DNA from: Hyperoplus lanceolatus
Taxonomy: Eukaryota; Chordata; Actinopteri; Uranoscopiformes; Ammodytidae
Assembly (NCBI GenBank): GCA_026929865.2
Contig: CM049398.1
Coordinates: 17,769,501 to 17,833,500, forward strand
Direction of reading: 5' to 3'
Length of the DNA: 64,000 bases
Part shown: positions 29,901 to 63,601 of the stretch, in pieces
How the letters are laid out: each line of letters starts with the position of its first letter
How positions within the stretch are numbered: position 1 is the first letter of the stretch
Position numbers and translations under genes: made by a program
The notes under the pieces: generated by a model
Seen by the model: only the letters and a program-made list of their open reading frames with translations
Told to the model about the DNA's origin: nothing
Database searches by the model: none

Positions 29901-30212
29901 TTCCATGGGTCTTGGGGAGACCACAGAAGCACATTAAATAACCAGTGATGAACCTAATCCTTCTCCTTTATAGTCCAGAAAATGCTTTGAGAAGATAGAG
30001 GAAATTGAACCTGGGAGGGAGAAGATGGTGAAAGGTAAATCAGGTTTTATTATTTTTTATTATTCACATCTTAGATTGGAACAACTTAATTTTGCCGTTT
30101 GGTTTGGTACATGTTGTGTACAGTACAGTACAGTACATACATACATACATACATACATACATACATACATACATACATACATACATACATACATACATAC
30201 ATACATACATAC

Positions 30213-30243
<31 letters not shown>

Positions 30244-30288
30244 CATACATACATACATACATACTTACATACATACTTACATACATAC

Positions 30289-30319
<31 letters not shown>

Positions 30320-30428
30320 CATACATACATACATACATACATACATACATACATACATACATACATACATAGATACATACTTACATACATACTTACATAC
30401 ATACTTACTTACATACATACATACATAC

Positions 30429-30459
<31 letters not shown>

Positions 30460-33400
30460 CATACTTACATACATACTTACATACATACATACATACGGTA
30501 TATCCCTCAAATTAAAGTGAGATACTTTAATACTTAAGAGCCCATCAAGCCAATAAAAAGCATAGGGGATGCTGTCCATTGTTGTTGAGTTGATTGTCAG
30601 AGTGTGTCTTACCAACTTAAGTCCATTTATTTGCATGTTAAGGTAGGTGGGGTAATCCGTGGATGGCTATTGCATTATATGATGCTTTCACTTTTCCCCC
30701 TGTTCTATGGCTGTGCGACTAAAGGTTACAGTCTGCTTTCCCTTTTTTGATCTCCTTTGTTTTTCTCTACACAGAACATATGACCCAGGTAGATTTGGAA
30801 GAGGAAAGAGAGACACAGGAGATGAATGCAATGCAAGAGTTTGACAAGGGAGATGAGAAGGCCACAAGGGTGCCGCAGCTGCTGGAGAAGCTCTCAAGGC
30901 CTGGTCAGAAGCCCTTCTACTACAGTGGAGGAATGGAGATTCTGTCACAAGCACTAACTGACTGTGAGTTTTTTTTTTGGGGGGGGGAATCTGTACAATT
31001 ATCTTTCTTTATACATTTTTTTCTGTCTACGTTCCCCAATAACCTGTTTTACCGGACCACCTATTTCTCAGTTATAATACTAAAATGGCCTGGGAGATTA
31101 AAGATATTTGAGGAGGAAAAATAGCCTTAAGTACTCACAGTGACCATCTTACATCAAAGCATCAGGTGAAGCAGGGAGGCAAAAACAAATTGTTTGCGGT
31201 CTTGCTCTTTGACAGTGAAAGAGAGGGGAGACCTCATGTTGTCCATCACTGATTTCTCTTCATGCTCCATTTGCTTGTCACGGTGAGCACATTTCCAATA
31301 TAGACTATAGAGCCAGACTGAAAGGGCCAATCCTCAGTGCTCTCTGGTGAGCCACTGTGCAGAGTATAGGTATACATAACATTACACTAATTAACACTAT
31401 AAAATGACACCTTAACAGCTGCATATACATTGCTGTGCAAAACAATTAACTTTGTATTTTAATTTTATTATATCAATAAAAATAACAACCAGTGGTCTAC
31501 TACAATTTTGTGTGCCTGATGATAAGTACAATCTCCAGAGCTAGTATGATTTGGTTTTTGTTATGTTCCTGATCATCTCAATTAAATGTGAACTTGGTGT
31601 ATGAATGGTGATGCAATTTGCTTGCTGAACTGTTGAGTGGGCTGCTGCATCTATTAAGTAATGTAATAAATAATGAACGTAGAAAACGACATGACTAATA
31701 TTAACATATGGTAATAGGCTGTAGTGCAGGTACAGGATTGTGTTTCCCTTGTTAGTTGTATTTGGTGCTGGAAGTAGGTGTAAAGGGGGTTGTTATGGGA
31801 TGACAGCAAACACTAATTAGTCTTCTAGAGATGTCTTGGTTGCAATGTATTGAAACACTTGGGATAGCAGGTGTCAATTGCATAACCTCAGTGGCACACC
31901 TGCTCTCAAGTCTGTCAGATTTAGAGCTGGTAGCTAATGAATGCATGGTGCTTCCTGTCTTTTGGTTTTGTAGAGTTATGACAGCCCAGCCTGAGGTCCT
32001 CTAGATGGGCAGGGGTTCTGGAACATGCCATTGAGTCTCAGGGGCACTTAGCACGACAACACGCAACGGTGCAAACGCAGAAATATTCTCGCGGTTGCAC
32101 TATATCATTTACATGAAAACAGCAAACGCAAGCATGAATCCACAAGTTTTTGAGATCTACTCCCAGGGAGGAATTTTTGGAAAACAACGGTTTTGGTTTC
32201 TTGTAAACACCGAAACCATTTTCCCTGGTAACACTGACGTCACGGCTCCACTTCACGTATGCGTAGTCTATAACATTTGCTGTCAAAATACCCACATGCG
32301 AGTTATAAAGTTAGAAGACAACATAACATGAAATGGTGTCTCCGCGGCACCATCACTGTGATCAGCGGAGAGTGTTGTGCAGGGCTCACAATTTAGTCTA
32401 AGCAATTAGTAAGTTATTGAGACCACCCGACACTTTTTCTGGGGAAAGATTTGTGCTCTGCCGGTTATTCTAGCAAAATAAACGTGTGTAGCTTCTATAT
32501 GCCAGGGACACGGCTCTCTCTACATTAAAAAAACACTATCCATAGTTCAGTGCACAGCGGTTAAGTTACTGTTCAACAAAAGGAGCATTAAGGCTACGGC
32601 TTCACAGTAAAAGCATTTCACTGGACAAACGTGAGTCGACTTTTATTTTGAAGTACGCCTAACAGGAAAGTAGCCGCTCACAAAGCCCCTTCACTATAAG
32701 CATGTCTTCTGTTTTCACGAGTTCAATGCGGTGAAATAAGAGGACAGAAAGCTTGTAATTTACAATACTTACACCAACCACTTTATGAACATTAATGGCA
32801 TTACATTTCGGTTACAGTAAGGTTGTATGCATCAAATTGTACCGGAAGAGCTATCTACTAGGCTGTGTCACCGCTGACTATTGGCTTGGCATGGCTGCTA
32901 CACTGCTACTACAGCGATTTTGTCCCGTTTCCTCTGAAAACATGTGTACGAGTGAAGATGTCAGATAAATTGTCTGAACAAGGGTTTTTTTTTTAAAACC
33001 AAAAACGGGAAAACTGTCACGTTTTCACTGTGTAAAGTGCCCCTCAATGCTTATATATTTCAGGGCACAGCGTGAGCTGTTTTTCTATTTCAGAAGAAAA
33101 AAAAAATGATCTAGCAATATCAAGAAAGATGAAATCATAACACTTCCAACAATGTTGAAAAACAGCATTGACAACTGTTCATAAAACTACCACTTCAAGT
33201 GGTAATGAGGAGATTTCAGTTTGTGTCAATTTTAGCTGCCTCTGGACAAAAGTGGCAGTGTTTTTACGAAGTCAGCTGTTGTTCCTGGGTGAGTTTACCC
33301 AGACAAAGGTATTAAGAAAAACTATATAAGATAGCATTATTTGCACTGATGGTCTCGTCTGCGGTTACATTTAATATATGATCATCAAAGGAATAATTAA

Positions 33401-42400: not shown

Positions 42401-45328
42401 ACCAACACCATGAGCCCCAATCCACAGTGTCCCCATCGCCTCAATGATCCATGCTGTCCTGTTATTTACTTCAATTGTGGTCAATTTGCTTAAACCATGA
42501 GGAAAAAATCACTATTGTCACACATTTAGTAAACATTTTAAATATTTAAATGTGATTAAAGCTGGAGTCATCCATTTCCGGTCAATAGGGGGCATAATAA
42601 CTCTGAAACACAGCCTGACATACAGTATTATTACCTGCAAAAAGTATGCCTAGTATTTTGGGAGGCAACTCTACTACTTCATTGGAATTATGTCTCTGGT
42701 GCCTGACAAATTTTAGTTCAGTATTTGGTGGCTACTGAATACAGTAAATGAGAGCAGGAATACTCAACTGAAAGCTGCATTTGTTAAGGAACTCTTATCG
42801 AAAATGTATCAGACGGATGAGTTATTTACATCCATATCCATACCCCCATATTACTTTATATGCGAATTAAGATGAACCAGGCACCCAAATGACTTTAAAT
42901 AATGATGATAACATCTTACAAATCCTACCTGGAAGATAAAGCAAGCACTCATGTATGACCCTTTTCTAATTCTCATGCATTGGTTTGCTTTACGTCTAAT
43001 GCTATTTATCTCATATTTTATTATCCTGTCCTTGAAAGTGTCACTATAATTTTCTGGTCACTCAAACATGTTTTCAGGCAACTCTCACCATTTTAACAAT
43101 GTACTTTTTAGCTGCAAACACATTCCATAACACCTACCGATTTCACATCTTGAAACAGCAATTTTCTTCTTTCAAATTTTACACCACTTCTTTCTTTCTT
43201 TCTTTCTTTCTCCAATAGGAGTTTTGTTTTCTCTCAATTCTCTGCTGTCCTGTTTATTTCTGTGCTGTGTTTTCCAATCTTACTCTGTATATCTCAATAT
43301 TCTACTGTATGTTTCTGTAATCTCCCTTGCTAATGCCAACATCCTTCTTTGTCCTCAGAGAGCCACGGGCGTACTCAGCACTGTCCTCCCTCAGTCGTCT
43401 GAGGCCATTCAGCATGCTATTCAGAGGGATGTGGTCCGGACCATGCGCCGGCTTCTGAAGGTGCATGCAGTAACTGTGAAAACATTATTAAAACTCATTT
43501 GTATCTTACATGTGTCATAATATTCTATTTCTGAATTGTTCTGTAAAGATTTAAATTATTTTAAATGAAAAATACTTAATCATTTAAGGTTATATATTTC
43601 TGGTTGATAGAAATTTGGTGCATGTAATTGCTGGTGTAACGCTCCATACAGTATCTGAAACCTGAGTGTCCGACATTATATTGACACACAACTTAAGTGA
43701 TCACTGATAGAGTCGAAGCTTTGTTCTAAAAAAACACTTTACTCATCATAATTTTATTTTTGATTGGGGTCATCATTTTAATTTAATATGCATGTATTAT
43801 TCATATGTTTACACATTTCACCACAGGTTTACCTTTCTTCATATCAAGTAATTATTAGAATTAATATACTTGTGTTTTGCAGTACATGTTTTATGTCTTT
43901 GTTGTTTTTTGGCTACCCAGGCTACAGGGCAGACTGCCACTAAGTATGCCATTAAGACTCTGACAGTGTGCACTGCGGCCAGTCACTTGGCAAGGGTGGA
44001 GCTGGTGAAGTCTGATAAAAGTGAGAAATTATTGACAATGTCAATATTACTTTAACTGCTATTTCATTAGTCCATGGCTATTGTTTGAAGATTGACAAAA
44101 TAGAAAAATTATGATGTATGGATATGAATACTGTATGTGTGTGAATGTCAGTATAGTTGTGTATTTCCATGCCCTTGTGTGTTTGTTAATGTACTATTTC
44201 AAAGCGTCTCATCCTTTCCTATTTGCCACTGATTTTTCGTTCCACACAGAACTGTTGATTTTACGTCTCTTGTTGGATTCCAGCTGTGATGAGATGGTGT
44301 CAGGAAATGCAGCCCTGTGCTTGGCCCACTGCCTCGAGTTGGATGGAATTGCCAGCAATCTGCTAGGAACGGATATTGTGATGCTGCTACTGCGCCTCGC
44401 TGCAGGGGATGCTAAGAGGACAGCTGTGCAGCAGAATGCAGCCATTGCTCTGGGAAAGCTCTGTCGATCTGAGCCCAGGTGCCCTCTCACCTCACTCTAT
44501 AACCCACATGCTGTTGATTGCATTATACAGCTAGCCTGAAGTAGCATAGAGACACCAGAGGAAATGCCACAATGACGATGAGCTAATGTGATGGCATGAC
44601 TGGTTAAACAAGTTGCTTAAACATAATGTGTGACTTCTGGCTCACACTGACCTGAACTATTCAAATATTTGTTTATTATGTTGTTATTTTAATTTCAAAG
44701 TTAACATTCAAAACCTTTTTTATAATATATAAAATATACAGTATATATATTAGCCTTAATGATTTTCTCATCCACCACATGCACTGCACAGTCTTTAGGG
44801 GGAACAAAATGATTGGATAACTATGCTTATGCTGGTGATAGCTCTTGATAACATTACCACTGTATTGCAAGTTTCTTTACTTCCTTACCATAATAGATAC
44901 GCTCATAGCCAGCAGCCCAACACCATGTCTTTATTGCAGTGGGGGGATTTTTAGGTTGTGTTTCCCACAGTCTAGAAAGAGGGAGAGAAGAAAACAGGAA
45001 ACAGCTTGACACTTAAATAATATTGATCTCAGGTTTTGACTATTGTTTGGGTTATGCTCATAATTACCGTAAAATCGATTTGATTGTTTCATCAAATTTA
45101 ATAATGGAAGCTTGCAGCAAAAAAAAAACACCTATTTATTGTGTCAGTATGCTACAGAGCTCTGCTGTGAACGTGTTGAGGATTTGTTGATCTTAAATTC
45201 CAAGAATTGAATTAGTTGAATGCCAACCCTGTTTTTTGTGTGTTTTTATCATATCCAGACATAAGAACAAACTTCGAGAACTACATGGCCTTGGAATTCT
45301 GCACTCCTGTATGAAGCTCATCACATGA
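23910..45328 (+). CDS. ttc12: Tetratricopeptide repeat protein 12, complete
   Basis: Twenty-one coding exons in perfect phase: 23910-23961, 25223-25377, 25667-25688, 27747-27824, 27933-28054, 29055-29114, 29432-29503, 29974-30034, 30775-30963, 34418-34487, 35374-35462, 35781-35949, 36512-36601, 37618-37681, 37790-37924, 38162-38254, 38521-38589, 43359-43460, 43921-44020, 44250-44478 and 45259-45328. The product has 696 residues, against 705 in human TTC12. TPR repeats span about residues 103-207 (ALKDKGNEAYAQEDYETAV; YTNRAQ; ISDCEWALK; KAYLHMGKAYLALKNY). An armadillo-like helical region follows from about 270 (LFRLNNGFSIISSN; GNAALCLAHCLELD; QQNAAIALGKLCRSEPR). The start codon matches the human start region (FLKNVDKIS vs FLKNVDEIS). 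Human TTC12 acts in the cytoplasm to preassemble axonemal dynein arms, and its loss causes primary ciliary dyskinesia. Exon three is only 22 bases. AATAAA lies at 45611-45616. Confidence 0.96.
24246..24918. mobile_element. Foldback MITE in TTC12 intron 1
   Basis: Imperfect inverted arms of about 130 bases: 24246-24372 and 24788-24918, beginning TGACAGTCGACTG and ending CAGTCGACTGTCA. Both arms contain TTTTATATTCGACAT (or its complement) and CCAATTTCCTCCAGAATGG. The middle has a direct repeat around GGTTTGGTGTTGATA (24418 and 24594). No coding content; superfamily unclear. Confidence 0.8.
26234..26848. mobile_element. TTAA-target non-autonomous element (piggyBac/Kolobok type)
   Basis: The termini are AGAGGACCTAT and ATAGGTCCTCT, flanked on both sides by TTAA (26230-26233 and 26849-26852). 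TTAA duplications are used by piggyBac and Kolobok transposons; which one cannot be told without a transposase, and none is present. It lies in TTC12 intron 3. Confidence 0.8.
28083..28560 (-). repeat. Probable LINE 3' end, antisense
   Basis: On the minus strand the block would end in TTCGAAATAAAAATG followed by (TCAA)n, typical of a LINE 3' tail with its polyadenylation-like motif. Upstream on that strand is AT-rich sequence with AAGGGGTGG. It lies in TTC12 intron 5. Family not assigned. Confidence 0.4.
30124..30496. repeat. (CATA)n microsatellite array, about 370 bp
   Basis: An almost pure TACA/CATA tetramer array with CTTACATA variants that become frequent in the second half. It begins 90 bases after the exon ending at 30034, in TTC12 intron 8. 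Confidence 0.98.
31140..32030. other. TTC12 intron 9, left part, nothing recognised
   Basis: Ordinary AT-rich intron; no exon, RNA gene or element ends that I can support. Confidence 0.5.
32039..33045. mobile_element. Non-autonomous hAT-like element
   Basis: The ends read CAGGGGCACTT and AAGTGCCCCTC, with a terminal base change on the right, and no clear target duplication remains. It shares CGACTTTTATTTTGAAG (about 32638) in inverted form with the hAT element at 38691-39715, so the two are related. It has no transposase and lies in TTC12 intron 9. Confidence 0.6.
33046..34417. other. TTC12 intron 9, right part, nothing recognised
   Basis: Unremarkable intron up to the acceptor TTCTCTCCTAACAG of the exon at 34418. 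Confidence 0.5.
38691..39715. mobile_element. Non-autonomous hAT element with 8-bp TSD
   Basis: Termini CAGGGCTGTACG and GTACAGCCCTG, flanked by a perfect CCCTCACA duplication (38683-38690 and 39716-39723). The interior has CTTCAAAATAAAAGTC shared with the element at 32039-33045. It begins 101 bases after the exon ending at 38589. No transposase. Confidence 0.9.
39929..42046. mobile_element. Foldback element split by a hAT element
   Basis: Inverted arms of about 82 bases: 39929-40011 and 41965-42046 (TCCAGCTGCAGCCCCGGAGA; TGACGGAAGTACTGTGGTGTG). Between them are a separate hAT-like element (40034-41694) and about 270 bases of own sequence (41695-41964). The inner element must be the later arrival. 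TTC12 intron 17. Confidence 0.7.
40034..41694. mobile_element. Non-autonomous hAT-like element, nested
   Basis: The left end CAGAGGTGGAAAGAGTAC with the AAGTAAAAGTA repeats typical of a fish hAT family. The right end carries the complementary pattern (CTCAAAGTAAAAGTAAAAGTA, then ACTTTACACTTTG) but with several changes, and the target duplication is not recognisable. Confidence 0.65.
42050..43358. other. Rest of TTC12 intron 17
   Basis: Plain intron with a (TTTC)n run at 43190-43212 ahead of the acceptor CTTTGTCCTCAG; nothing else recognised. Confidence 0.5.
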
Positions 45329-48366: not shown

Positions 48367-48474
48367 CACTGGGGCTTGAGTTGTTAAGAAACAAGACTGA
48401 GCAGAAATGAGAAGGCTTTACTGTTTCATGTTTGGATTTTTTCTGCTCATGGGTTTGTATTACTGGTAACACTT

Positions 48475-49460
48475 TACAATAAGGTACACAAAATTGTAGT
48501 AGCTACTACATACCTACTACATAGTTTTTTTTTTTTTGCGCTACCTATGTGTTAGGTAGCACAAAAAAAAACCCTATGTGTTACCTACTACATAGTTTTT
48601 TTTTTTTGCGCTACCTATGTGTTAGGTAGCACAAAAAAAAACCCCTATGTGTTACCTACTACATAGTTTTTTTTTTTTGCGCTACCTATGTGTTAGGTAG
48701 CACAAAAAAAAAACCCTATGTGTTACCTACTACATAGTTTTTTTTTTTTTGCGCTACCTATGTGTTAGGTAGCACAAAAAAAAAACCCTATGTGTTACCT
48801 ACTACATAGTTTTTTTTTTTTGCGCTACCTATGTGTTAGGTAGCACAAAAAAAAAACCCCTATGTGTTACCTACTACATAGTTTTTTTTTTGCGCTACCT
48901 ATGTGTTAGGTAGCACAAAAAAAAAAACCCTATGTGTTACCTACTACATAGTTTTTTTTTTTGCGCTACCTATGTGTTAGGTAGCACAAAAAAAAACCCT
49001 ATGTGTTACCTACTACATAGTTTTTTTTTTTTGCGCTACCTATGTGTTAGGTAGCACAAAAAAAAAACCCCTATGTGTTACCTACTACATAGTTATTTTT
49101 TTTTTGTGCTACCTAACACATAGGTAGCGCAAAAAAAAAAAAACTATATAGTACCTAACACATAGGTAGCACAAAAAAAAAACTCTATGTGCTACCTAAC
49201 ACATAGGGTTTTTTTTTTGTGCTACCTAACACATAGGTAGCGCAAAAAAAAAAAAACTATGTAGTAGGTAACACATAGGGTTTTTTTTGTGCTACCTAAC
49301 ACATAGGTAGCGCAAAAAAAAAAAAACTATGTAGTAGGTAACACATAGGGTTTTTTTTTTTTGTGCTACCTAACACATAGGTAGCGCAAAAACAAACAAA
49401 CTATGTAGTAGGTATGTAGTAGCTACTACAATTTTGTGTACCTTATTGTAAAGTGTTACC
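48475..49460. mobile_element. MITE built of hairpin units with an orientation switch
   Basis: Termini GGTAACACTTTACAATAAGG and its exact complement, with a perfect 8-bp duplication GTATTACT (48467-48474 and 49461-49468), a hAT-type target. The interior is a tandem array of about 70-base units, each with T(9-12)GCGCTACCTA, a TGTGT loop and TAGGTAGCACA(9-11), that is, a self-contained hairpin. Eight units run one way (about 48530-49090), then about four or five run as reverse complements (about 49095-49400). The whole element is thus a long inverted repeat of tandem hairpins. No coding content. Confidence 0.92.
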
Positions 49461-49469
49461 GTATTACTT

Positions 49470-51587
49470 TTAGAATTATCTTTTTTAGGTGTTGTACACC
49501 GGTTTTATGTTACAGCTCATTTGAGTCACTACTTGTAAATATTTGATTGAATCTATATAAACATTAATTTTTGAATGTCTATACTTTTAACAGTTTTCAG
49601 TTTTGAACATACAGCTCTGATGAGAAATGTTGCAAAAGTGTATCCCATGAATTATTATATGTGGTTCAAAGTCTTCATTCAGTCTAATTTCCTAATGTTC
49701 TTTGAAAGTAGAGACAACATTTCTACCAAATAGCGTCTGGACCAAATTTCATATTAGTCATGTTTTGTGCACTTCCCTACTGTGTTTTGGAAAATTTCCA
49801 ATGCATTTCTGATGCTAAGACTTAGGAGAAGCAATTTCAAGAGCCAAAACAATTCAACAGGATGACTAAAGGTTCTTCTTTCACACAAATTTCCAGGTTT
49901 TTCAAAAATCGCAATTCATTTTTTAAGCATTTAAGCCAATTATTTATATGCACAATGGTCTAGGACATAAGTAGACCTCAGAAAACAAAGGCCTAATGTG
50001 TTCTGAACATTTCCATATAAGACACTTTGGTATAATTTATCTTCTTGCACATTTAAAATAGGTATTAATAGTAGTATGTTAAATCCGAGAAAATACCTCT
50101 CGACCCCAGAGGGAGTATGGCACTCGAAACATTTGTAAAAATATATTTACTGTTAATGTTATAGTGGAATGCTAAAAGAACAAACATACTATCAACATCT
50201 ACAGAGTGAAAAACTCGGTAGGTCTGCATCCCACTTTAGCTGACATGACCTGCATATGTATTCCCAGCTAATACTGTGAAGAGAAAAAAAACATTCAGCA
50301 GTGTTAATATAATTAGATTATGTTGCTTCCCTCAGTATTTGATTATTTCCTTTATCTTTTAAATAGTATCTTATAGGTGTTTGCCTTCAATATTGAAAAC
50401 TGACATGATGTGCCCTGTAATTTGCCACACACATTCATTTAAATGGAAAACAGGGCGATATTAGTGCTTGAATAAACAGTAAAACTCAAAATTGTATATC
50501 TTAGCAAATAGTCTCACTCCAAGGGTTGTAAACATCATTCACTTTTTCCTCCTTTGAATCTGCTACGACGACAGGGTTCAGATTATTGAGGGTATTTTGT
50601 AGAGGTGTGAATGTAAACCATTAGTTTTGCTTGCATTTAACAAGCTGTAAAACACATTTCCTACAGCAGGGAACATTTGTTCATAGATTTGTATGAAATG
50701 GTTGCCCATTACCTCCACCAGCAGTCTGCATCTGAAATTGCTTGAACTTGCTTGAAAATAGAGATACAGTAGGTCATTTTGAGCTGCTAAATTTTGTTTT
50801 TTACAGGTTCTTTTGCGAGACAAATATCTTGTGGTATTTTGCTACTCACGCCAATCAACTGGTGAAATCCTGCTCTAAACTATAAATGATTCCAATACTG
50901 GATGTAGCTCTATGTTGAGATCACTAGCACACATGAATGGACAGGCATCAAGCCACCTTATATCTACCATGTCCATTGTGTGGCCATTACAGCCCTCTGC
51001 AGATGGCCACAATGTCAACCCCATTTGCATTGCTTAGATGTAGGGCACCACAAGGGAAGTTTGGATCACATTAGGCCACACCACCACAAGCCCCACCAAC
51101 CCTGCAGTATTATTCCGCTGTCACTTTTAAGTTGTAATCCATCAAATTTGTAGCTGCAATGATTGATACTGATGCAGACATCTAAAAATACTGCCTAATT
51201 GGCAGCAATCCTAATCAATGCATTGCAGAGATTGAAACAGTAATATACATATAAACAACATCTACAAAAATAGCTATTTGTTATTGGTGTAACGTAACCT
51301 GACTTTTATGGGTTGAATATCAATGGACCTTGTGATTTTCTGTTAATTACCAATATCATTTTCACATCAACTCTCACTGTTAATTATTGTCTGGTGAATA
51401 TATCATGCAACCCCTGTTGACTCTCAGTGGGATTTTAAAACCAGTGATTAAATGTTAATGTCTAAATCATTGTTTCTTCTAACATTAATATTCAATTGAA
51501 TTCATTATTATTAGAAGGAAATACATGTGACCGTTCTGCATGGATCTGCAAGAAATTTGAGTGACACATTTTTCCTTTTCTTTGTAG
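49470..51587. other. Region before the giant exon, no exon found
   Basis: AT-rich sequence in which the upstream exons (start codon, any signal peptide) of the next gene might be expected, but I found none with convincing splice sites. The acceptor of the giant exon (TTTTTCCTTTTCTTTGTAG) ends at 51587. Confidence 0.4.
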
Positions 51588-52618
51588 TCAGGGCAGAAAA
51601 AGAAGATTTCCAAGGTAACCACACAGAAAAAACAAAAGGCACAACCATCAAAAAAGATCTGCTTTTGAAAGAGGAAAACACTATTGGTCATGGAACCGAA
51701 GCACATCGACACACTGCGACGGCGATGAAGGCCAAGTTTCCTGTGGTGGTTTTGTTTGACACCAGACCAACAGCCCTCCATGAGACTACACAAATCACAA
51801 AAGCCTTAGCTAGAATTGCCTCAGCGAGCAGAGAGTCATTTGTTTCCAGAAATGGTCAAAACTCTCTCAGATCAATAGAACACAGTTCATCAGCTGTGAG
51901 GATGCACACGGAATCCGATGTCCCTTTGATCTCGAAATATAAGAAGATTCCTTTCTCTTCTACACAAGCTGCATATGAATCAATGATGAATGGCACCTCC
52001 AAGCCACGGGTCCATTTGTCTGTAGCTGCAGTGAAAGCATTTCTTTGGCCTCACACTTTGCTTGATAACAGGAATCAGAGAAACAGTGACTCTATTTCTG
52101 TCACATCTGCTGACGGAGGGCTGGGAGTTTCAATTTTGTCTGCATCATATCCTCGTGTAATTGATAACCCGGCTGTGCTGCGTGATGACAACCGATCTCA
52201 AGGCAAGGGAGAAAAGGGAATTTCAAGCCTTGGAAGAAAAGGGTATCTGTTTGGTACGATGCAATCCATCCTACAAAGTCATACAGCAGGAGAGTCAGTG
52301 ACAGGAAAAACTGTGGCAAACTTGTGTTTGACCTGCCCAAAAGATCGACGGGCCATGTCCGCTGAGAAATCTGTAACTCTGCCTGCAGGGTCACCTAATG
52401 ACGTCACAGACTCTCTTAATACAGATGGGCTTTCTTTAGATTTCAATCAATTTGCAACCCCATCACCCAGTTCAACTCCACAAGAAGCTAGATATCAAGA
52501 AGAAATACTGAACAAGGACAAAAGTTACCAAAACACCCAGCATTATAGTTTCGGTGTGAGGGAACAACTCTTTTATAATGTGAAATTTCCTCCTTTCTAT
52601 CCTTTGCTAAAACTGTGA
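51588..52618 (+). CDS. First open segment of the giant exon
   Basis: It follows a strong acceptor (TTTTTCCTTTTCTTTGTAG), with two bases completing a codon begun in an unseen upstream exon. About 342 codons stay open (EDFQGNHTEKTKGTT; SRESFVSRNGQNSLRS; VRDNRSQ-like sequons). The end at 52616-52618 is probably not the true end, because protein-like sequence of the same composition continues in another frame (TETSITQKPSSTTAPLHRS from 52764) up to the hAT insertion at 53043. Confidence 0.55.
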
Positions 52619-53043
52619 GTGGTAGTCATATCATGTTGAATAATTCCCAAGTCGAACATTTTCTCTCTGATGCAGGAACAAATGCTGCTGAAACAGTCTT
52701 TTGCTGAGTTGTCGTCAGTAACACAAAAAGACACACAAGAAACAATCGAGGCACACAATCCCTACTGAGACTTCTATCACACAGAAACCCAGTTCAACAA
52801 CTGCACCGCTTCATCGCTCGTCTGAAAAAACTGTAAAACAGAAGATCAGCACTTTGGGGGACCCACAGTCCAAACTGATCGATATAAGTAAGATTAACAA
52901 AAGCATTTCCCACAGTCTCTTAACAAACTTGAAAAATGTATTTTTCCAAAACCAACCTTCGGACTTCAGCAATGGGTCAGAAAGCAATACATCTTTAATT
53001 GCCGCAGCTCACCACAGCATGCAGAAAAGTGGTCTTCCAGAAG

Positions 53044-55552
53044 CAGTGTTGGGAGTAACGCGTTACAGGAAGTAATACATTACTGTAATGCATTACGTTT
53101 TGCTGTAACGCGGTAATGTAAGGCATTACAGCAAAAAAATGGTAATATGTAACGCGGTACATAGCTCAGAAACGAGCATTACAATGCATTTTAAACCCGA
53201 AATTGACTTCTTTGTTGTTTTTATACAAATTGGCCAACACCGCGAGTTTCGCAGAGTAGAAAAAAACCCACGCTAATGTTACTGCTAGAGGAGAAGAAAA
53301 CTCGATTTGCTGCTACAATTGATTCCAAAGATGCGCTAGCCTGCTGGCTTCCGTTTCACTGCCCAAGTTATTGAAAACTTTTGTGGTGTTTGGAGACTCT
53401 GACGTGAAAGCACGTATCACTTAACGAGCAGCGGGTGCTGCCGCGAGCCCCTCCCCGTCTAAGAGCACTCGGAGGCGGTCAGTCTCGGAGCAGCCCCTCG
53501 GAGCGAGTCCCTGCCTGCTGTCAGAGCAGAGAGGTGACACACCTCCGCGTCCAGGCTGCAAATGAATCGCGCTGTTGTTAGGTGCGAAATCGGAGATAGT
53601 GTGCCACTAAGCTATTTATGCTGAAGCGGTATTGCTGGATTTAGGAGTTATTTAAAGATATGGCAAGCAAAAAGTTGACGAGTAGGGAGTTGGTGTTCAC
53701 TCGTTCTACGGCCCCGGTCACGGTGCGTCCATGCAACGCAGCATTATATATATATTAATATTATCATATTATAATGATGATAATAGTAATAATGCAGAAT
53801 AGAAGAAAAAAGGAAATAAAAATGGTAGTGGGTAAAAAAAAAATCATAAAAAACACCTACTGTTTACATGAGTTTTGTGGTGTAGTTCTAGTTCTAGTTT
53901 GCAACTGTTGGCTTACAACAAAGTGGACATCATTACAAATGGATGGAGGGGTGAATCTGATTAAATAAGTTCAACTCTCTTTCAAAATATCAGGTATTTC
54001 ATGGAAATTACATAATAGCCTACAACATGGCCGCCACCATATGACGTCATAATATGCTAATTAGATGGGAAAATTTACTCCCCAGATACACTTTAGGTCA
54101 TTCTCAATATTTGTCTCATTTACACTTTGTCTCTATCTCAAACCACTTTCAATCCAGAGCCTTCTGAAATTTAAGTGTCAAAATCTAGTATTTTTAAAAA
54201 TAAAACCCGGCGCCTAAAGGGTTTGCTTTGATGCAAATTATGAAATCTTAACATAACGGCGGCAATGATGGTGCGTAAAGGACAGCGCAGTTGGCAAGCT
54301 CTCCTCGGCACTACAAGTGCTGCAGCAAAAAAGTCACAATAAGAGTTGATCGCTTTGTCGATTCATGCCTCTGACACACACGTCGACTCCCAACATAATG
54401 AGTGGATGCTTTGAATTAGCAAAGGAGATATATTAAGGCTACTATTGTTATTATAAAATGTCACGCAAGAGAGACGATAAACAAACATAATGGGCTGTTA
54501 TCATTTAGATTAGATGGCAAGATGATAAGGCAGATTCTTTGGAACAACTAAAAAAGGCAAAAGTTGATGATGATGTGAACAACTTGTTTGTGCTTTTAAG
54601 TCGCCAGAACGCAAGAAACAAATCTTTGAGGCTCAATTTACTTTTTCAATCTACAGTAGTAGGCTCTAGCTCTATTGATATTAATATAGGCTAAATAAAT
54701 ACCTGAAGATACAGTATTTCTATCATAAAATGTATTGCACCATGAGTCATAACCTTTGTTCCCAAGGCTGTTCACCTCCTCAACTCCTCCTAAACCCCCC
54801 CCCCCCCCTCCCCCCCCCCATGGACTGTGAAGCCGTGAACTCTGTTTTGCCCTCTCACTCCCATTAACTGTTACAACACAAGTACCTCGCTTCAATTCAT
54901 CTCAACAATTGTATTATGACCAGCATGGTATTTTATTTATTTATTTATTTAATTGATTGCACTTTATATTTCTGTCATATTTGACACATTTTACACTGTT
55001 GAGAGTCAGTTCTCCATTTATAAACATGCACTTTGCATATTTTATACATATTTACATATATTTGTGTATTTGTAGACACCTGTGCTTGTGTGTATTGTCT
55101 GCCAGGTAGCAACGCTGTGTTTTTGTTTGTTTTTGTTTGTTTGTTTGGACATGGCCTTGTCCTTTGTAATGCTGCTGCTCTATGTGCCTTCAATTGCCCC
55201 CTGGGGACAAATAAAGTTTTTTTGAATTTGAATTTGAATTTGAATAACTGTGACCATTATATTATATAGCATAGGCCTACTTGTGTTAGCCTTAAGCCTA
55301 GCTCAGTCATTATGCCATACCATGTCACCTCCTGCTGTGTAATGAGCTGCATTGAATACAAGAAGATCTATTGAGAACACCAAATCCATATTTCATGTTA
55401 TTTTGGTGAAAGTAATGCAAAAGTAATGTAAAAGTAGTGTAATGCCTTACAATTCAAAGACAGTAATATTGTAATGTAACTAACTACTTTGAAATGCCAG
55501 TAATAAGTAATAAATACCACATTACGCTTTTGAAGTAACTTGCCCAACACTG
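53044..55552. mobile_element. hAT element 1 in the giant exon
   Basis: Termini CAGTGTTGGGAGTAACGCG and AACTTGCCCAACACTG, with a perfect TCCAGAAG duplication (53036-53043 and 55553-55560). It closely matches element 2, so both come from one young family. A short open stretch (MASKKLTSRELVFTRSTAPV near 53660) may be a relic of a transposase start, but no complete transposase is present. It carries a LINE 3' end at 54754-55243 that element 2 lacks. Confidence 0.93.
54754..55243 (+). mobile_element. LINE 3' end (L2-like tail) in hAT element 1
   Basis: A 3' UTR-like block with C runs at 54796-54820, ending GGGGACAAATAAAGTTTTT and (TTGAAT)n. It is flanked by ATAAC on both sides (54749-54753 and 55244-55248). 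The same position in hAT element 2 (near 58880) is empty. Confidence 0.75.
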
Positions 55553-55571
55553 TCCAGAAGTTAGTGATCAC

Positions 55572-58500
55572 CAGTGTTGGGAGTAACGCGTTACAGGAAG
55601 TAATGCATTACTGTAATGCATTACGTTTTGCTGTAACGCGGTAATGTAAGGCATTACAGCAAAAAAAATGGTAATATGTAACGCGGTACATAGCTCAGAA
55701 ACGTGCGTTACAATGCATTTTAAACCCGAAATTGACTGGTCTGTTGTTTTTATACAAATTGGCCAACACCGCGAGTTTCGCAGAGGAGAAAAAAAACCAC
55801 GCTAATGTTACTGCTAGAGGAGAAGAAAACTCGATTTGCTGCTACAATTGATTACAAAGATGCGCTAGCCTACTGGCTTCCGTCTCACTGCCCAAGTTAT
55901 TGAAAACTTTTGTGGTGTTTGGAGACTGACGTGAAAGCACGTATCACTCTGTGCTCAACGAGCAGCGGGTGCTGCCGCGAGCCCCTTCCCGTCTAAGAGG
56001 ACTCGGAGGCGGTCAGTCTCGGAGCAGCCCCTCGGAGCGAGTCCCTGCCTGCTGTCAGAGCAGAGAGGAGAAACACCTCCGCGTCCAGGCTGCAAATGAA
56101 TCGCGCTGTTGTTTGGTGCGAAATCGGAGATAGTGTGCCACTAAGCTATTTATGCTGAAGCGGTATTGCTGGATTTAGGAGTTATTTAGAGATATGGCAA
56201 GCAAAAAGTTGACGAGTAGGGAGTTGGTGTTCACCCGTTCTACGGCCCCGGTCACGGTGCGTCCATGCGCAGCAGTGGTGCAGCCATGCGACGCAGCATT
56301 ATATATATATTAATATTATCATATCATAATGATAACTAGAAAATGCATTTCCTGCTGAAAATGCGTGTGAATGCTGAAACAGCTTACGCTAAACTGGATA
56401 GCTGAGTATGAAGATTTGAAAAAGGTTTATAAAGTTGTTGAAGTTTATAAAGGGCATAATTGTGTAAAATAAGTTTAAAAGGAGTTGAAAAGTTGAATAT
56501 ATAGAGGGTTGAATAACATTTCTTGCTGAAATTATGAAGAAGTTGAAAGACATGGATAAAAATCTTAAAACTATGAAATAGTAATTCAATAGACTTGGAG
56601 CTAAACTACCTTGATGTCTTGAATGTATATGAATCGGCTAAAGGAGTATGAAGATGTGGAAAAGTAAGAAACAGTCTTAAATATGAACAATAGTGAATTG
56701 TTTAACTCTTATAGGAATGATGTTGAATATTTAAAAATGTCTAGATAAAATTATAATTGAAAGACATGAAAAAAAAAATATGTGTGAAATAGGCCTTCAA
56801 AGAGCAGAGTATTTGCCCCATTTCAACTTTGCCTCTCCTAACTGTCTAATAAAGCGGAAAAAATAAAAAAATAATCAAGAAAAAAAAGTGAAATTGCCCT
56901 TTAATGGGCAGAGTGAGTCACCAAGGTGAGTGTATGTCTTATTGAGGGTCTGTGATCAGGCAGAAATCCCACCTTTTCGAGGCCTCAGAGAGGTAATTTC
57001 ATCCAAAACGTCACCTCAAACCGCTGCCTAACTGACGGACCGTGAGTCTAACTGACAAAATTATTTTATTGTTAGAACCAGAAGAATCTGATGAAGACAC
57101 AGTGTGAAGATTATGTCTGTAATGTGAAGAATATGAGAACCAGACTATTTTAAATGTGTGGTACAGTCTGCCTTTCTCCAGAAATGTCATGTCTCAGTTA
57201 TCGAGGAGGCAGTTGGGTGAACACCATTTAGCTTGGAAGCCCAGACCTCCCATTGTGTAGGTCCGATTGCTTCAGTAGTCACATCTATGCGACCGGCAGA
57301 ATATGTCCTACATTTTGATGTAAAAATTATCCACGTAGGGTTTAATTTGTGGGAGTGAGAGGCAGTTATGTGGAAGGTTTTGGTGTATTTTTACAACAAT
57401 TCTACACTGTAACAGTTGGTTCCCCCACTCTGCCTCTGAACATTCCGTCCCATCCGGATCCCATTATAAATTTAGAAAGAGGTTAAAAAAAGCTTAAAAC
57501 TAAAACTGTGTTTGTTCAAAGACAGTTGAAGATTTTAAAAAGTTGTCAAAGAATTTAATAGCTGAAATTAATGTGAATTGTTTAAAGTTTGAATGGAGGT
57601 TGTAGCTGAAAAAATGCGGGAGGAGATAGGTTTCAAAGAGGATGAAGTTTTAGCGGTTTGGAATGCTGCTCCCATCCGCGTCAATGTTAAAATAATTTGT
57701 TAAAAGCTGAATATTTGAAATATTTGAAAAGGTAGAAACATTTTAAAAGAGGTCCAAACATGTCCTTAAAGAGCTGAACATTTTGGTATTTGTATGGTTA
57801 AAATAGCTGAAGATTTGAAGGAGTTGAAGAGAGCCAAAAAACGTACGGAAGCGGAAAAATAAGTTTAATAAAGATTTGGATAACAATAGTGTGAATGCTG
57901 GAAGCTCCAGCATTCACACTAATAATGATGATAATAGTATTAATGCAGAATAGAAGAAAAAAGGAAACAAAAATGGTGGTGGGTAAAAAAAAATCATAAA
58001 AAACGCCTACTGTTTACATGAGTTTTGTGGTGTAGTTCTAGTTCTAGTTTACAACTGTTGGCTTACAACAAAGTGGACATCCTTACAAATGGATGGAGGG
58101 GTGAATCTGATTAAATAAGTTCAACTCTCTTTCAAAATATCAGGTATTTCATGGAAATTACATAATAGCCTACAACATGGCCGCCACCATATGACGTCAT
58201 AATATGCTAATTAGATGGGAAAATTTACTATTCTCAATATTTGTCTCATTTACACTTTGTCTCTATCTCAAACCACTTTCAATCCAGAGCCTTCTGAAAT
58301 TTAAGTGTCAAAATCTAGTATTTTTAAAAATAAAACCCGGCGCCTAAAGGGTTTGCTTTGATGCAAATTATGAAATCTTAACATAACGGCGGCAATGATG
58401 GTGCGTAAAGGACAGCGCAGTTGGCAAGCTCTCCTCAGCACTAAAAGTGCTGCAGCAAAAAAGTCACAATAAGAGTTGATCGCTTTGTCGATTCATGCCT

Positions 58501-59187
58501 CTGAAACACACGTCGACTCCCAACATAATGAGTGGATGCTTTGAATTAGAAAAGGAGATATATTAAGGCTACTATTGTTATTATAAAATGTCACGCAAGA
58601 GAGACGATAAACAAACATAATGGGCTGTTATCATTTAGATTAGATGGCAAGATGATAAGGCAGATTCTTTGGAACAACTAAAAAAGGCAAAAGTTGATGA
58701 TGATGTGAACAACTTGTTTGTGCTTTTAAGTCGCCAGAACGCAAGAAACAAATCTTTGAGGCTCAATTTACTTTTTCAATCTACAGTAGTAGGCTCTAGC
58801 TCTATTGATATTAATATAGGCTAAATAAATACCTAAAGATACAGTATTTCTATTATAAAATGTATTGCACCATGAGCCATAACTGTGGCCATTATATTAT
58901 ATAGCATAGGCCTACTTGTGTTAGCCTTAAGCCTAGCTCAGTCATTATGCCATACCATGTCACCTCCTGCTGTGTAATGAGCTGCATTGAACACAAGAAG
59001 ATCTATTGAGAACACCAAATCCATATTTCATGTTATTTTGGTGAAAGTAATGCAAAAGTAATGTAAAAGTAGTGTAATGCCTTACAATTCAAAGACAGTA
59101 ATATTGTAATGTAACTAACTACTTTGAAATTCCAGTAATAAGTAATAAATACCGCATTACGCTTTTGAAGTAACTTGCCCAACACTG
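55572..59187. mobile_element. hAT element 2 in the giant exon
   Basis: Same family and ends as element 1, with its own perfect duplication GTGATCAC (55564-55571 and 59188-59195), itself a palindrome. Only 11 host bases (55561-55571) separate it from the duplication of element 1. It contains a Helitron-like insert at 56336-57922; without it the element is about 2.0 kb. Confidence 0.93.
56336..57922 (+). mobile_element. Helitron/Helentron-like element in hAT element 2
   Basis: It starts CTAGAAAATGCATTTCCTG and ends with a 16-bp hairpin (arms 57887-57902 and 57906-57921, core GTGTGAATGCTGGA) finishing CTAA before T. TGTGAATGCTG from the hairpin also occurs about 33 bases from the 5' end. Element 1 shows the uninterrupted AT-rich site near 53765-53785, though TGATAA repeats blur the exact border. 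The interior has many GTTGAAAAG-like words and no long reading frame. Confidence 0.7.
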
Positions 59188-59195
59188 GTGATCAC

Positions 59196-60650
59196 AGCTT
59201 TGAATCAGAGCCAACTGCAAAAATGAGGTTGACTGGAGCTCACAGCGCAATGACACTCTTTCGCCTTAGTAGGCCAACCAATTATGCAGTCAAAAATTCT
59301 GCGTCTTCCTCTCTGACAGGAACAGCTGATTCTTTGTTCTCCCCATTAAAGAGCCAAACGCCAGCTAAACTAAGCTCTCAGACCAAAGAACCTGTGTTGA
59401 CTTCTTTACTAAAAGATACTGTCATCAAGTTGGCATCCACAACAACAAAGAGGCACCTGGCAGATAAGGAATATTTTCAGACATCTAACATTGTCAACAG
59501 CCTTGTTAAAAATGTGGGTCCCTCTGGCCCAGCAAATAAACCATTTATGAAAGAACCACTTACTCCAACTTTTACAAGAAGGAACATTGTCGTGCCTGGG
59601 AAGTTGTTTCTTTCAGAAACAAGACAGAACTTTGATGATAATGTGTCCACAATCACTCAAACACTATCAAGCATGTCATTCTCTGAGAGACTGACAGCAT
59701 GCCGAATTTTAGTGCGTCAATCAAAGATCACCCAGGCAAGGATGTTTGACGTTATCAATCATATCCAGGTGGCACAAACACGCCAGTCATTTTCTAAATA
59801 TAACAGGGATTTAAACAGTGAGTCACCAATACTCCAAAACATCAAGCTTGGAAATGAAAATGAGCAGGTTTCGACTGTTGTTGCCGAACATAAAGAAATT
59901 ATTAAGACAGAGGGCAAGCAGGGCAAAGAAAATCAAGTGACAAAACAGATACTAAGGCTGCAAGACAAGGAAGAGAGCAGGGAGAATGAAAAGATGGGAA
60001 ACAAAAGTGACAAATTATCAGATAAATCAGATAAAATAGAAAGCGGGGAGCCAGAAGCAATAATTACTAGTGGAGTTGAGACAAATAAAAATGCAGACTG
60101 GGAGATGGATAGCATTGACGAGCATGAGGCCAACACAAATAAAGAGGAAGGTGAAGGGACTTTAGGAGAAGAGCATGTTAATCTGAGACGAAACAAAGAT
60201 CCAAGACAAGGGGAAGTGAGGGACATAGAATGTGCTCAGAGAAAAGGTGTGACTAAAATAAATACAAGGAATCCAACCAGTAATAAAGCTGAAAAGCAAA
60301 CAGAGTATTTGACAAAAGAAGGAGCAGAGGCTAGGCAAGTAGAAACATCAGGCAAAGAAGGCATTACATATAACAAGAACATTGGGAGAGAGGACATGAC
60401 GAATGTTCCCCTTGGACCGACTACTAATTCTAAAAAACTTTGCGGCGACAAAGGGCACCCCGTTACAAACATATCTTCCTGCCACAGTTTGAATAAACAG
60501 TTGGGAATGACTGAAACCAATGGCATTCATCTGGGTGATAATATTGCACAAATTGTGGAAATGAAAAATAAGCAATTTTCCTACAAAGTGACAAGCAATC
60601 CCAGACCACGCCACTCAACTGTGATATCTAGACTTCAGAACTACCAATAA
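59196..60650 (+). CDS. Middle open segment of the giant exon
   Basis: After removal of both hAT elements the frame runs on as GLPEVSDHSFESEPTAKMR without a break. About 484 codons are open. The central part is highly charged (KEEGEGTLGEEHVNLRRNKD; KTEGKQGKENQ) and probably unstructured; one short helical-looking block is SMSFSERLTACRILVRQSK. An opposite-strand open stretch (59933-60226) is only a shadow. The stop at 60648-60650 is followed by protein-like sequence in a shifted frame (YKPTKHGATSSVAKENTPNK). Confidence 0.55.
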   Translation, partial: SFESEPTAKMRLTGAHSAMTLFRLSRPTNYAVKNSASSSLTGTADSLFSPLKSQTPAKLSSQTKEPVLTSLLKDTVIKLASTTTKRHLADKEYFQTSNIVNSLVKNVGPSGPANKPFMKEPLTPTFTRRNIVVPGKLFLSETRQNFDDNVSTITQTLSSMSFSERLTACRILVRQSKITQARMFDVINHIQVAQTRQSFSKYNRDLNSESPILQNIKLGNENEQVSTVVAEHKEIIKTEGKQGKENQVTKQILRLQDKEESRENEKMGNKSDKLSDKSDKIESGEPEAIITSGVETNKNADWEMDSIDEHEANTNKEEGEGTLGEEHVNLRRNKDPRQGEVRDIECAQRKGVTKINTRNPTSNKAEKQTEYLTKEGAEARQVETSGKEGITYNKNIGREDMTNVPLGPTTNSKKLCGDKGHPVTNISSCHSLNKQLGMTETNGIHLGDNIAQIVEMKNKQFSYKVTSNPRPRHSTVISRLQNYQ

Positions 60651-60654
60651 TAAC

Positions 60655-63601
60655 ATATTTTCCCAAAGAGCCATACACACAGATTACACCTCGTCATCAG
60701 TCTAGCCACAGGTATAAGCCTACAAAGCATGGAGCTACGTCTTCAGTTGCTAAAGAAAATACCCCGAACAAAGTTGTTGAGGCTACGTTTTCTTTGACTG
60801 CCATATCAGAAATGGTCCCAAAACTCAACCAAACATTTGGAGTTATAAGTTCAAAAATGAGTGATGTGGTGAAGCCAACAATTTTTCATCACAGCAGCTC
60901 AACTAAATCAGCTTACCCTGTATTAAACGGGAGGAGGAATATGTTGTCACTCACAACCGCAGGGTTGGCAGTCACAACTGGGTTCCTGAGAGCTAAGCCC
61001 TACTTTACAGTAAATACTACTGCTCACAGTTTATCAATTATTCACAGCCTCTCAGGTAGAAATACATTTAGTGCTCCGAGTTTGAAGGCAAATTCCCTCC
61101 TTCAGACTACCAGTGAGAGGGAGCAATCAGAACACTTTTTACCTGCACATATATTTAAGTCCAGTGTCAAGGGCCACTTAACCTCTAACATGACTGAAGA
61201 ATTGAATGTATCTAATTCAGTGCATGCTGCTTTACATATGTTTAATAAGTCATATACCAGAACACCTCTAGCCTTGAAATCTGATGGCCACATATCCTTT
61301 GGCCAGTTGCAGTCTCACCAAGGGCAATTTGCCCCTCAGATAAGTCACTCCTCCTCCTCTCTCTCTGGTATGACTGCAGGCCAGCCATTTCCATTCAAAC
61401 TGTCAGCCCATTCAGATGCTCCATATGCTTCTGTTGATGATAACGAGAACAGATCTGTACGGACCCCAATGGCATCAATGAGCCCTAAAGCAAAAAATGA
61501 TCAATCTACTTTCAGCAGCGTGTCACCACTTCTAAATCTTTCACTGTTAGGAGGTGACAGTTTACCTAGCACCTATAGCCTGACGGGGTTAACCAGATCA
61601 GCCTCAAAAAAGGATATATTGCAGGCCTACTCTGGTGCTGAATATGTAAATGGAGGAAGTGGCCAAGCTGAGGCCTTGTTAGGGACTGCTGATGAAACAA
61701 ATCAAACTGATGAGAATGACAGTGTGCAAAAGATGGTGAGCTTGGTGCGTAAAAATCCAGGTGTATTCACCAAGCAGATGGCAGAAAATAGAGATGAAAA
61801 GAACACGTCCCCTTCTATAGCACAAACAATTGGCATGGCTAAACACAATGGTAGTAAAACTGATGAATTCAAATCTTTGTCTGTACAACTGACCCAGAAA
61901 CTAGCATTAAAAAACACAAATAAGAACCACAATGACTTGCTGAATGTTGATGGAAACAATGAAGTAAACAACGCAGAGAGAACTACCCCGGAAAATAATC
62001 TTATTGACGGTCATAATGTGACAAGTTATGAGCCCATCATATTTGCAATACAGACTACCCACAGGATTGAGCCGGAAATACATGAGGAGTTTGTGATTGT
62101 TAGAAATTATTTAGCTAGACTTGTGCTTGACACAGATGATCGAATTGGCACCACTGCATTTGTTGAGTCAGATAGGGTCTCCAAACTACTGAAAATACAG
62201 GCTAACAATGTGACTAACAATGCTACTTCTTATATGGAACGTAATGCAGCTAAAACAACTGAAAAACAAGACGATCCCCATGCACTTCCAGAAACCATGG
62301 GCGACTATACTCTCTTTGTTCCACATATTGATTTTAGAAGTGACCTTAAGGTCCCAAATGCACCAACACAGCGGATCGCTGGCCGGATAATGAATGTTAC
62401 TTCTGAATTTCAGACAACCACTGCAAAAACCAATGATTTTGTGTCTCTGACATCAACTAAAAGCAGCCTTATTGTGTACACAGCAGCTCATGAATCGAGA
62501 CTGGCCACTAACACAAGTGTTATAACTGATAAAGAACAAAGCCAGCATGCCTCCGCTGATATGTTCTCAGTAACACACCATTTCAGTGACCCTGTGCAGG
62601 GTGTCCGAGTAGATTTGTTGAACAGAGCTGGAGGAGCACTTAGTACAACACCTACCATGGTTAAAAGATTGAAATATTCACCATTTCAAGACTATACAAC
62701 TTTTGTAACAACAAATAGCGCTTCTGAACATCAACCACACGAGAGGAATCCAAATACACCTGACAAAGGTGACCAACATAAGAAGCACGTTATACCTGAA
62801 AAGACCTCATTAGGTCAAGTAATACTTGGAGCTGTGTTTGATTCTGTACAACCTACAGAGATCTCACGTACAGAGATTCATAATCAAATCAGCTGTAGGT
62901 CAATTGGCTGTGCTAAGTCAAACAAGAATACTGAAACAACATCCGGAACAGGTGAGATTGATCATAAAGCTACAAAGGCTGGGCACACTGGAAGAAATAA
63001 TTTTAATGCAGCGCACACTCCTGGCACAAAACAAGGAAATGGCAAATGTAGCACTGACTGTCCTGTACCTGGAAAAGCTACGCCACAGGCCACCAACTTC
63101 GACAATGCAGTTCTTTCAACATCAACCAGTAAATCTGATAATGACCATGCCAAAGTTGAGGAGACTGTGACAAAAATTGACAACAGTATTGCCTTTGAAA
63201 CTTCAACAAAAACATGGAGAGCCATTTCTGAAACGGATCATTTGGAGAGGCTTGGGACACCTACGCAGGCCCAGGTTTTAGGAAAAACAACACAAAGGCT
63301 CTCTCACAGAGAAGCCTCCGAAGCCCCGGAAGATTTTGCAACAGAGGTCACTTTATCTGAACTTGAAGCAACTACTGGGCAGACCACTGAACAGACTATA
63401 GAGCTCGCCCTCCTCACTCAAAAAAATATGAAAACACAATTAAAGAGAGGAGCATCCAAAGATGAGATATTTGAGGCACACAATGCCACCAGGTCAGTTG
63501 ATGCAGCATTAAAAGAGTCTGGGAGCAAGCTTTTACTGCTGTCTGAATCAGAGCTGACAAGGAGGAGTAAGACCTCACCTCAACTGTATCTCTCTGGGTG
63601 A
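60655..63601 (+). CDS. Last open segment of the giant exon, mucin-like
   Basis: About 980 codons open to the stop at 63599-63601. Ser/Thr-rich with many sequons (SNMTEELNVSNSV; NNVTNNATSY; TNTSVIT) and few cysteines, two of which are paired closely (KCSTDCP). The composition fits a heavily glycosylated extracellular stalk. The final residues (LLLLSESELTRRSKTSPQLY) are not a membrane anchor, so either the gene ends here or further exons lie beyond the window. Confidence 0.55.

Follow-up and report, generated by a model that had tools for sequence, protein, structure and literature searches.

Two young hAT-type elements eleven bases apart in one exon of a probably disabled gene of Hyperoplus lanceolatus

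Disruption of exons by transposons is a well-known kind of event, and unitary pseudogenes that arise through transposon insertion form a recognised class. Elements of the hAT type are known by a CAG...CTG terminal consensus. For Hermes, PMC2803484 gives a target consensus of nTnnnnAn. Introner families range in median length from 30 to 654 nt according to PMC9860276, which reports no evidence for a pattern of such intron gain in groups such as vertebrates. A literature search on hAT elements and introners, on hAT target preference, on hAT elements in teleost exons or pseudogenes, and on ttc12 synteny found no description of the locus reported below among the titles and abstract openings that it covered, and nothing wider is claimed. 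The window (the whole stretch of 64,000 nucleotides analysed here) contains two hAT-type elements, E1 and E2, whose ends and duplications are read directly in the assembly:

53036-53043, + strand: left copy of the first target-site duplication, TCCAGAAG
53044-55552, + strand: E1 (element 1), non-autonomous hAT-type, 2509 bp
54749-55243, + strand: 495-bp insert within E1, the tail of a presumably L2-like LINE, ending in (TTTGAA)n and absent from E2
55553-55560, + strand: right copy of the first duplication, TCCAGAAG
55561-55571, + strand: 11 host bases separating E1 from E2, TTAGTGATCAC (TTA plus GTGATCAC)
55564-55571, + strand: left copy of the second target-site duplication, GTGATCAC, inside the 11 host bases
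55572-59187, + strand: E2 (element 2), non-autonomous hAT-type, 3616 bp
56326-57921, + strand: 1596-bp insert within E2, with an 8-bp duplication, ATAATGAT, on either side, absent from E1
59188-59195, + strand: right copy of the second duplication, GTGATCAC

E1 starts with CAGTGTTGGG and ends with CCCAACACTG, and E2 has the same ends in the same orientation. The two 8-bp target-site duplications are perfect and of different sequence, and 11 host bases separate the elements when one copy of each duplication is counted; the original prediction of two hAT insertions at this spacing, each between perfect 8-bp duplications, holds to the base. For the insert of E1 and for that of E2, the left junction matches exactly at a single place in the genome, in a search that base-changed copies would escape. 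The E2 insert also bears a terminal hairpin of two perfect 16-bp arms. No transposase domain (BED or hAT dimerisation) was detected in six-frame translations of E1 or E2, the search of E2 giving just two sub-threshold, unrelated matches, and the elements are accordingly classed as non-autonomous only.

Both elements have the 8-bp duplication of hAT elements and short terminal inverted repeats of the CAG...CTG type (CAGTGTTGGG / CCCAACACTG). The Hermes target consensus is seen as a bias only: among 19 left flanks, 11 have T at position 2 and 12 have A at position 7. GTGATCAC agrees with it at both of these positions and TCCAGAAG at one. The 33-base left end has 247 exact copies across the genome (807 Mb), and among 20 left ends (L013-L029) the duplication was exact at 12, carried one mismatch at two, and was not found in the examined stretch at six. 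The first look in genome searches with the two element bodies yielded 1507 and 1389 candidates. Forty were scored in each search, and among these scored candidates six and nine places, besides the window's own copy, had a rounded identity of 100%. Three relatives picked from the top of the body-search lists (L040, L041 and L042), all at other loci, have an exact 8-bp duplication in every case. A literature search for CAGTGTTGGG together with hAT returned unrelated matter only.

Between E1 and E2 there are 38 differences over 1991 aligned sites, whereas the 2014-bp core of E1 differs from L041 (C6:8466600-8469300) at five sites of 2014 and from L042 at seven, and the 2020-bp core of E2 differs from L040 (C4:15107545) at five of 2020; distances between the E1 and E2 groups amount to 34-39 per 1991-1992 sites. 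The gap between 38 differences and five shows that the two have separate ancestry in two young subfamilies and arrived separately. The predicted involvement of a single young family is borne out as to youth and family, and is to be amended to two subfamilies of that family which, on these distances, landed independently. Three-way subtraction (with L024 as the third row for E2) leaves about two private substitutions in E1 and about four in E2 per roughly 2-kb core. In fish, roughly 3e-9 to 1e-8 substitutions accumulate per site and year, and at these rates the private substitutions would put the age of the elements, very roughly, on the order of 0.1-0.7 million years. The relatives L040-L042 are 2015-2030 bp long and carry neither the 495-bp nor the 1596-bp insert; the inserts either postdate the landing of the elements or were already part of them at donor sites that have since been vacated or lie outside this assembly. 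By this count, the exon may have received up to four recent insertions.

For 1500 randomly placed copies, about 0.1 pairs within 35 bp are expected. Two facing CAGTGTTG ends 8-19 bases apart occur at 17 places in the genome, against five for the reversed control. Ten of the 17 were read, and at three of these ten both sides carry CCCAACACTG and CAGTGTTGGG ends: L035 (this locus), L036, and L037, where one side is a copy of the E1/E2 family. Ends of this kind are thus seldom found so closely paired, but this locus is not the only case. Further close pairs of the same left end were seen among the places listed for it: a copy beginning inside a longer copy (L013), two copies in opposite orientations (L014), and an inverted second left end within one element (L015).

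The host sequence around the insertions was resolved into the following segments:

51588-52555, + strand: host block A, an open frame with a good 3' splice-site match at 51587, its end approximate
52556-52784, + strand: small intron, probably an ordinary one, separating block A from block B and scoring highest (4.4) among 56 GT-AG pairs that keep the frame
52785-53043, + strand: host block B upstream of the insertions, by open frame and codon usage
59196-60626, + strand: host block B downstream of the insertions, by open frame and codon usage
60627-60676, + strand: break in the host frame, with no good intron and with coding-like bases preceding it
60677-63598, + strand: host block C, 989-aa, by open frame and codon usage

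A coding-path model places the coding stretch of block A at 51518-52591. The interval 52556-52784 has a low coding score and stops in all three frames, and an ordinary intron there is probably the better explanation for the interruption that separates block A from block B. When the flanks of the insertions are joined with one copy of each duplication, an open frame results (...GLPEVSDHSFESEP...). With an off-frame stop rate of 8.2%, the chance of 575 open codons is about 3e-22, and on the strength of that rate (0.082) the opening is not fortuitous. A codon model trained on two blocks and scored on the third (block B being covered over 59196-60600) gave +0.19 to +0.23 in the open frame, against -0.07 to -0.13 in the strand's two remaining frames. 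One reverse frame per block was positive as well (0.11 to 0.17) but contained 9, 11 and 34 stops, and the strand call therefore rests on stops and codon score together. The 97 codons closest to the insertions were kept apart from the training set; they contain no stop and score 0.142 (0.090 for the upstream part, 0.186 for the downstream part), against a 99th percentile of 0.088 in 2000 overlapping draws from intergenic sequence at 49.5-51.4 kb. Judged by open frame and codon usage, the sequence flanking the insertions is coding and belongs to one long exon of a host gene, as had been predicted. The exact rejoining of the frame, also predicted, does restore an open frame, but this is automatic for any target-duplicating element: since removal of the element and one duplication restores the old sequence, it adds only that the site was coding.

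The blocks contain 19-27% serine plus threonine and little cysteine, with 10 cysteines and 26 N-glycosylation motifs in 1858 residues. Pfam searches with four host blocks and with the three forward frames of 45.3-51.6 kb gave nothing above cut-off; two host blocks queried against solved structures gave one weak match for one and none for the other; viral contigs, prokaryote contigs and phage records gave no matches, nor did Rfam over 48-64 kb. Upstream, four exons (43359-45328) splice into a single open frame, which we take to be the end of TTC12, an open reading frame in this region giving HEAT matches only, all sub-threshold. Downstream, outside the window and on the same strand (C4:17843501-17853500), a kinase domain (E 3e-18) is followed by ankyrin repeats (E 3e-16), presumably the order expected for ANKK1. 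ANKK1 and TTC12 are given in PMC5900934 as upstream neighbours of DRD2 across jawed vertebrates. With TTC12-like exons on one side and ANKK1-like domains on the other, the host gene, apparently one for a long Ser/Thr-rich protein, lies between a TTC12-like and an ANKK1-like gene. A search with block C alone found this block at one place in the genome (one match, two candidates scored). Also downstream on the same strand, L010:5692-5886 (C4:17839192-17839386) holds an open reading frame with a transmembrane-like stretch, then basic residues and a stop; it could be the last exon of the host gene, its splice phase as read not fitting block C directly. Two repeats of the region deserve mention: a (TACA)n array of about 94 copies at window positions 30119-30496, and a 71-bp minisatellite of 8.9 copies at 48511-49140, with related repeats on to 49414, flanked by inverted ends that match at 68 of 70 bases, the outer 63 perfectly. 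The interval 48465-49460 has the look of an inverted-repeat element with a tandem array inside it.

Read into E1, the host frame meets a stop after 10 codons (53073-53075), and it contains 63 in-frame stops in E1 and 85 in E2, which also hold 6 and 7 polyadenylation-signal words (AATAAA/ATTAAA), respectively. Downstream, the frame is broken at 60627-60676, where an intron was considered and rejected, the best of 73 frame-keeping pairs scoring 0.3 and the content being coding-like; this break could be an assembly error. No other small lesion was seen in the coding sequence, which spans about 5.6 kb; this density is consistent with a death of about the same age as the insertions, or with an assembly error. 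With so few lesions the gene would be either very recently dead or still partly used. Stops within the elements, a separate frame break, and a block C at one place in the genome are together what a unitary pseudogene would show in its own genome. We infer that the host gene has most likely been disabled recently by two separate hAT-type insertions, in a course of ordinary gene decay rather than intron birth. Between the gene death and the new introns that the original prediction had offered as alternatives, the stop in E1, the polyadenylation-signal words and the frame break favour the former, and the weak splice pairs near the element ends leave the latter unsupported. In the course we propose, two non-autonomous hAT-type elements would have inserted separately by cut-and-paste, each making an 8-bp duplication, with transposase supplied from elsewhere. 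Selection on the exon probably ceased with one of the two insertions, and the other element, the L2-like tail in E1, the 1.6-kb element in E2 and the frame break could then have accumulated freely.

A competitor to this reading is intronization, in which splicing would take out the two elements together with part of the host sequence and leave a shortened in-frame protein. Splice scores are rough because the weights were textbook values; on this scale three introns of the TTC12-like neighbour score 3.8, 5.6 and 7.2, whereas the best frame-keeping pair reaches -2.7 near E1, 2.8 near E2 (where the donor scores -4.0 and the acceptor lies 124 bases past the duplication), and 3.9 for a single nearby pair over both elements, a value attained by 46% of 300 random pairs of a smaller geometry. 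Adequate frame-keeping splice sites of the kind expected of an introner were thus not found at or near the element ends. Under wider limits, the pairs 52888-59319 (8.8) and 52888-59616 (7.8), the best of 575 candidates, exceed all three scored neighbour-gene introns. The former would remove 97 codons along with both elements, and its strong acceptor at 59319 combines with block A donors at scores up to 6.8 (best of 1783 candidates). Against this, of 400 random window pairs similar in size, 17% also reach 8.8, the random-pair nulls being lenient because stop-free content was not required (length in threes was kept in the 8.8 null); moreover, the stretch to be dropped is coding-like, and the frame break at 60627-60676 would persist. 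Intronization is improbable on this evidence, and we give little credence to the specific version in which the double insertion is tolerated through a cryptic intron of about 52888-59319 that excises both elements and 97 codons in frame. Were that version true, two young transposons would between them have given a vertebrate gene that is still alive a large new intron. The good splice-site scores at 52888 and 59319 could instead mark an ordinary old intron (291 bp without the elements) that by chance reads open in the frame of the host and in which E1 and E2 came to sit. This was rejected and is judged very unlikely, since the held-out codons lie above the intergenic null and lack a stop, the upstream part less clearly than the whole.

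Disablement by two separate insertions, the preferred reading, embraces the sub-case of a polymorphic null allele, in which the insertions segregate and the gene is alive in the species; the probabilities of the two overlap. The handful of private substitutions in each element and the solitary further lesion speak for this sub-case, while the further insert that each element carries and the separate frame break fit a longer-lived dead allele. The assembly contains no exact empty site, though it may represent one haplotype only, and we regard a segregating allele as possible but doubtful. As everything rests on one assembly, E1 and E2 might belong to different haplotypes joined in error, or the frame break might be a base-calling error. 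Such a join would have to fall within the 19 bp between the elements, and the last four TTC12-like exons next door, which serve as a short control against frequent indel errors, splice in one open frame; an artefact of assembly is accordingly a slim prospect. That one element derives from its neighbour by local duplication or a local hop might be suggested by their common family, their shared orientation and the 11 bases between them. Their target duplications differ, however, and each is much closer to distant copies, on other contigs for E1 and 2.7 Mb off for E2, than to the other, so that a local origin was rejected and is scarcely credible.

With each element about 0.25% from a relative elsewhere, the locus offers a clean, datable exon disruption. 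The likely gene loss lies between two conserved neighbours, and the locus suits measurement of the rate at which insertions accumulate in a gene freed from selection.

Among described systems, introners, as presented in PMC9860276, resemble this locus in that a DNA transposon lies in an exon with a target duplication, and E1 and E2 differ from them in having no adequate splice pair at the element ends. The elements themselves resemble non-autonomous animal hAT DNA transposons (class II) in their 8-bp duplications, CAG...CTG inverted ends, T2/A7 target bias and lack of a detected transposase domain; they are set as hAT-type by these features. The host locus as a whole is most like unitary pseudogenes formed by transposon insertion, with which it shares a gene at one place in the genome, a broken coding exon and a further lesion. 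It differs from these in being very recent and in having gathered what may be up to four insertions in one exon.
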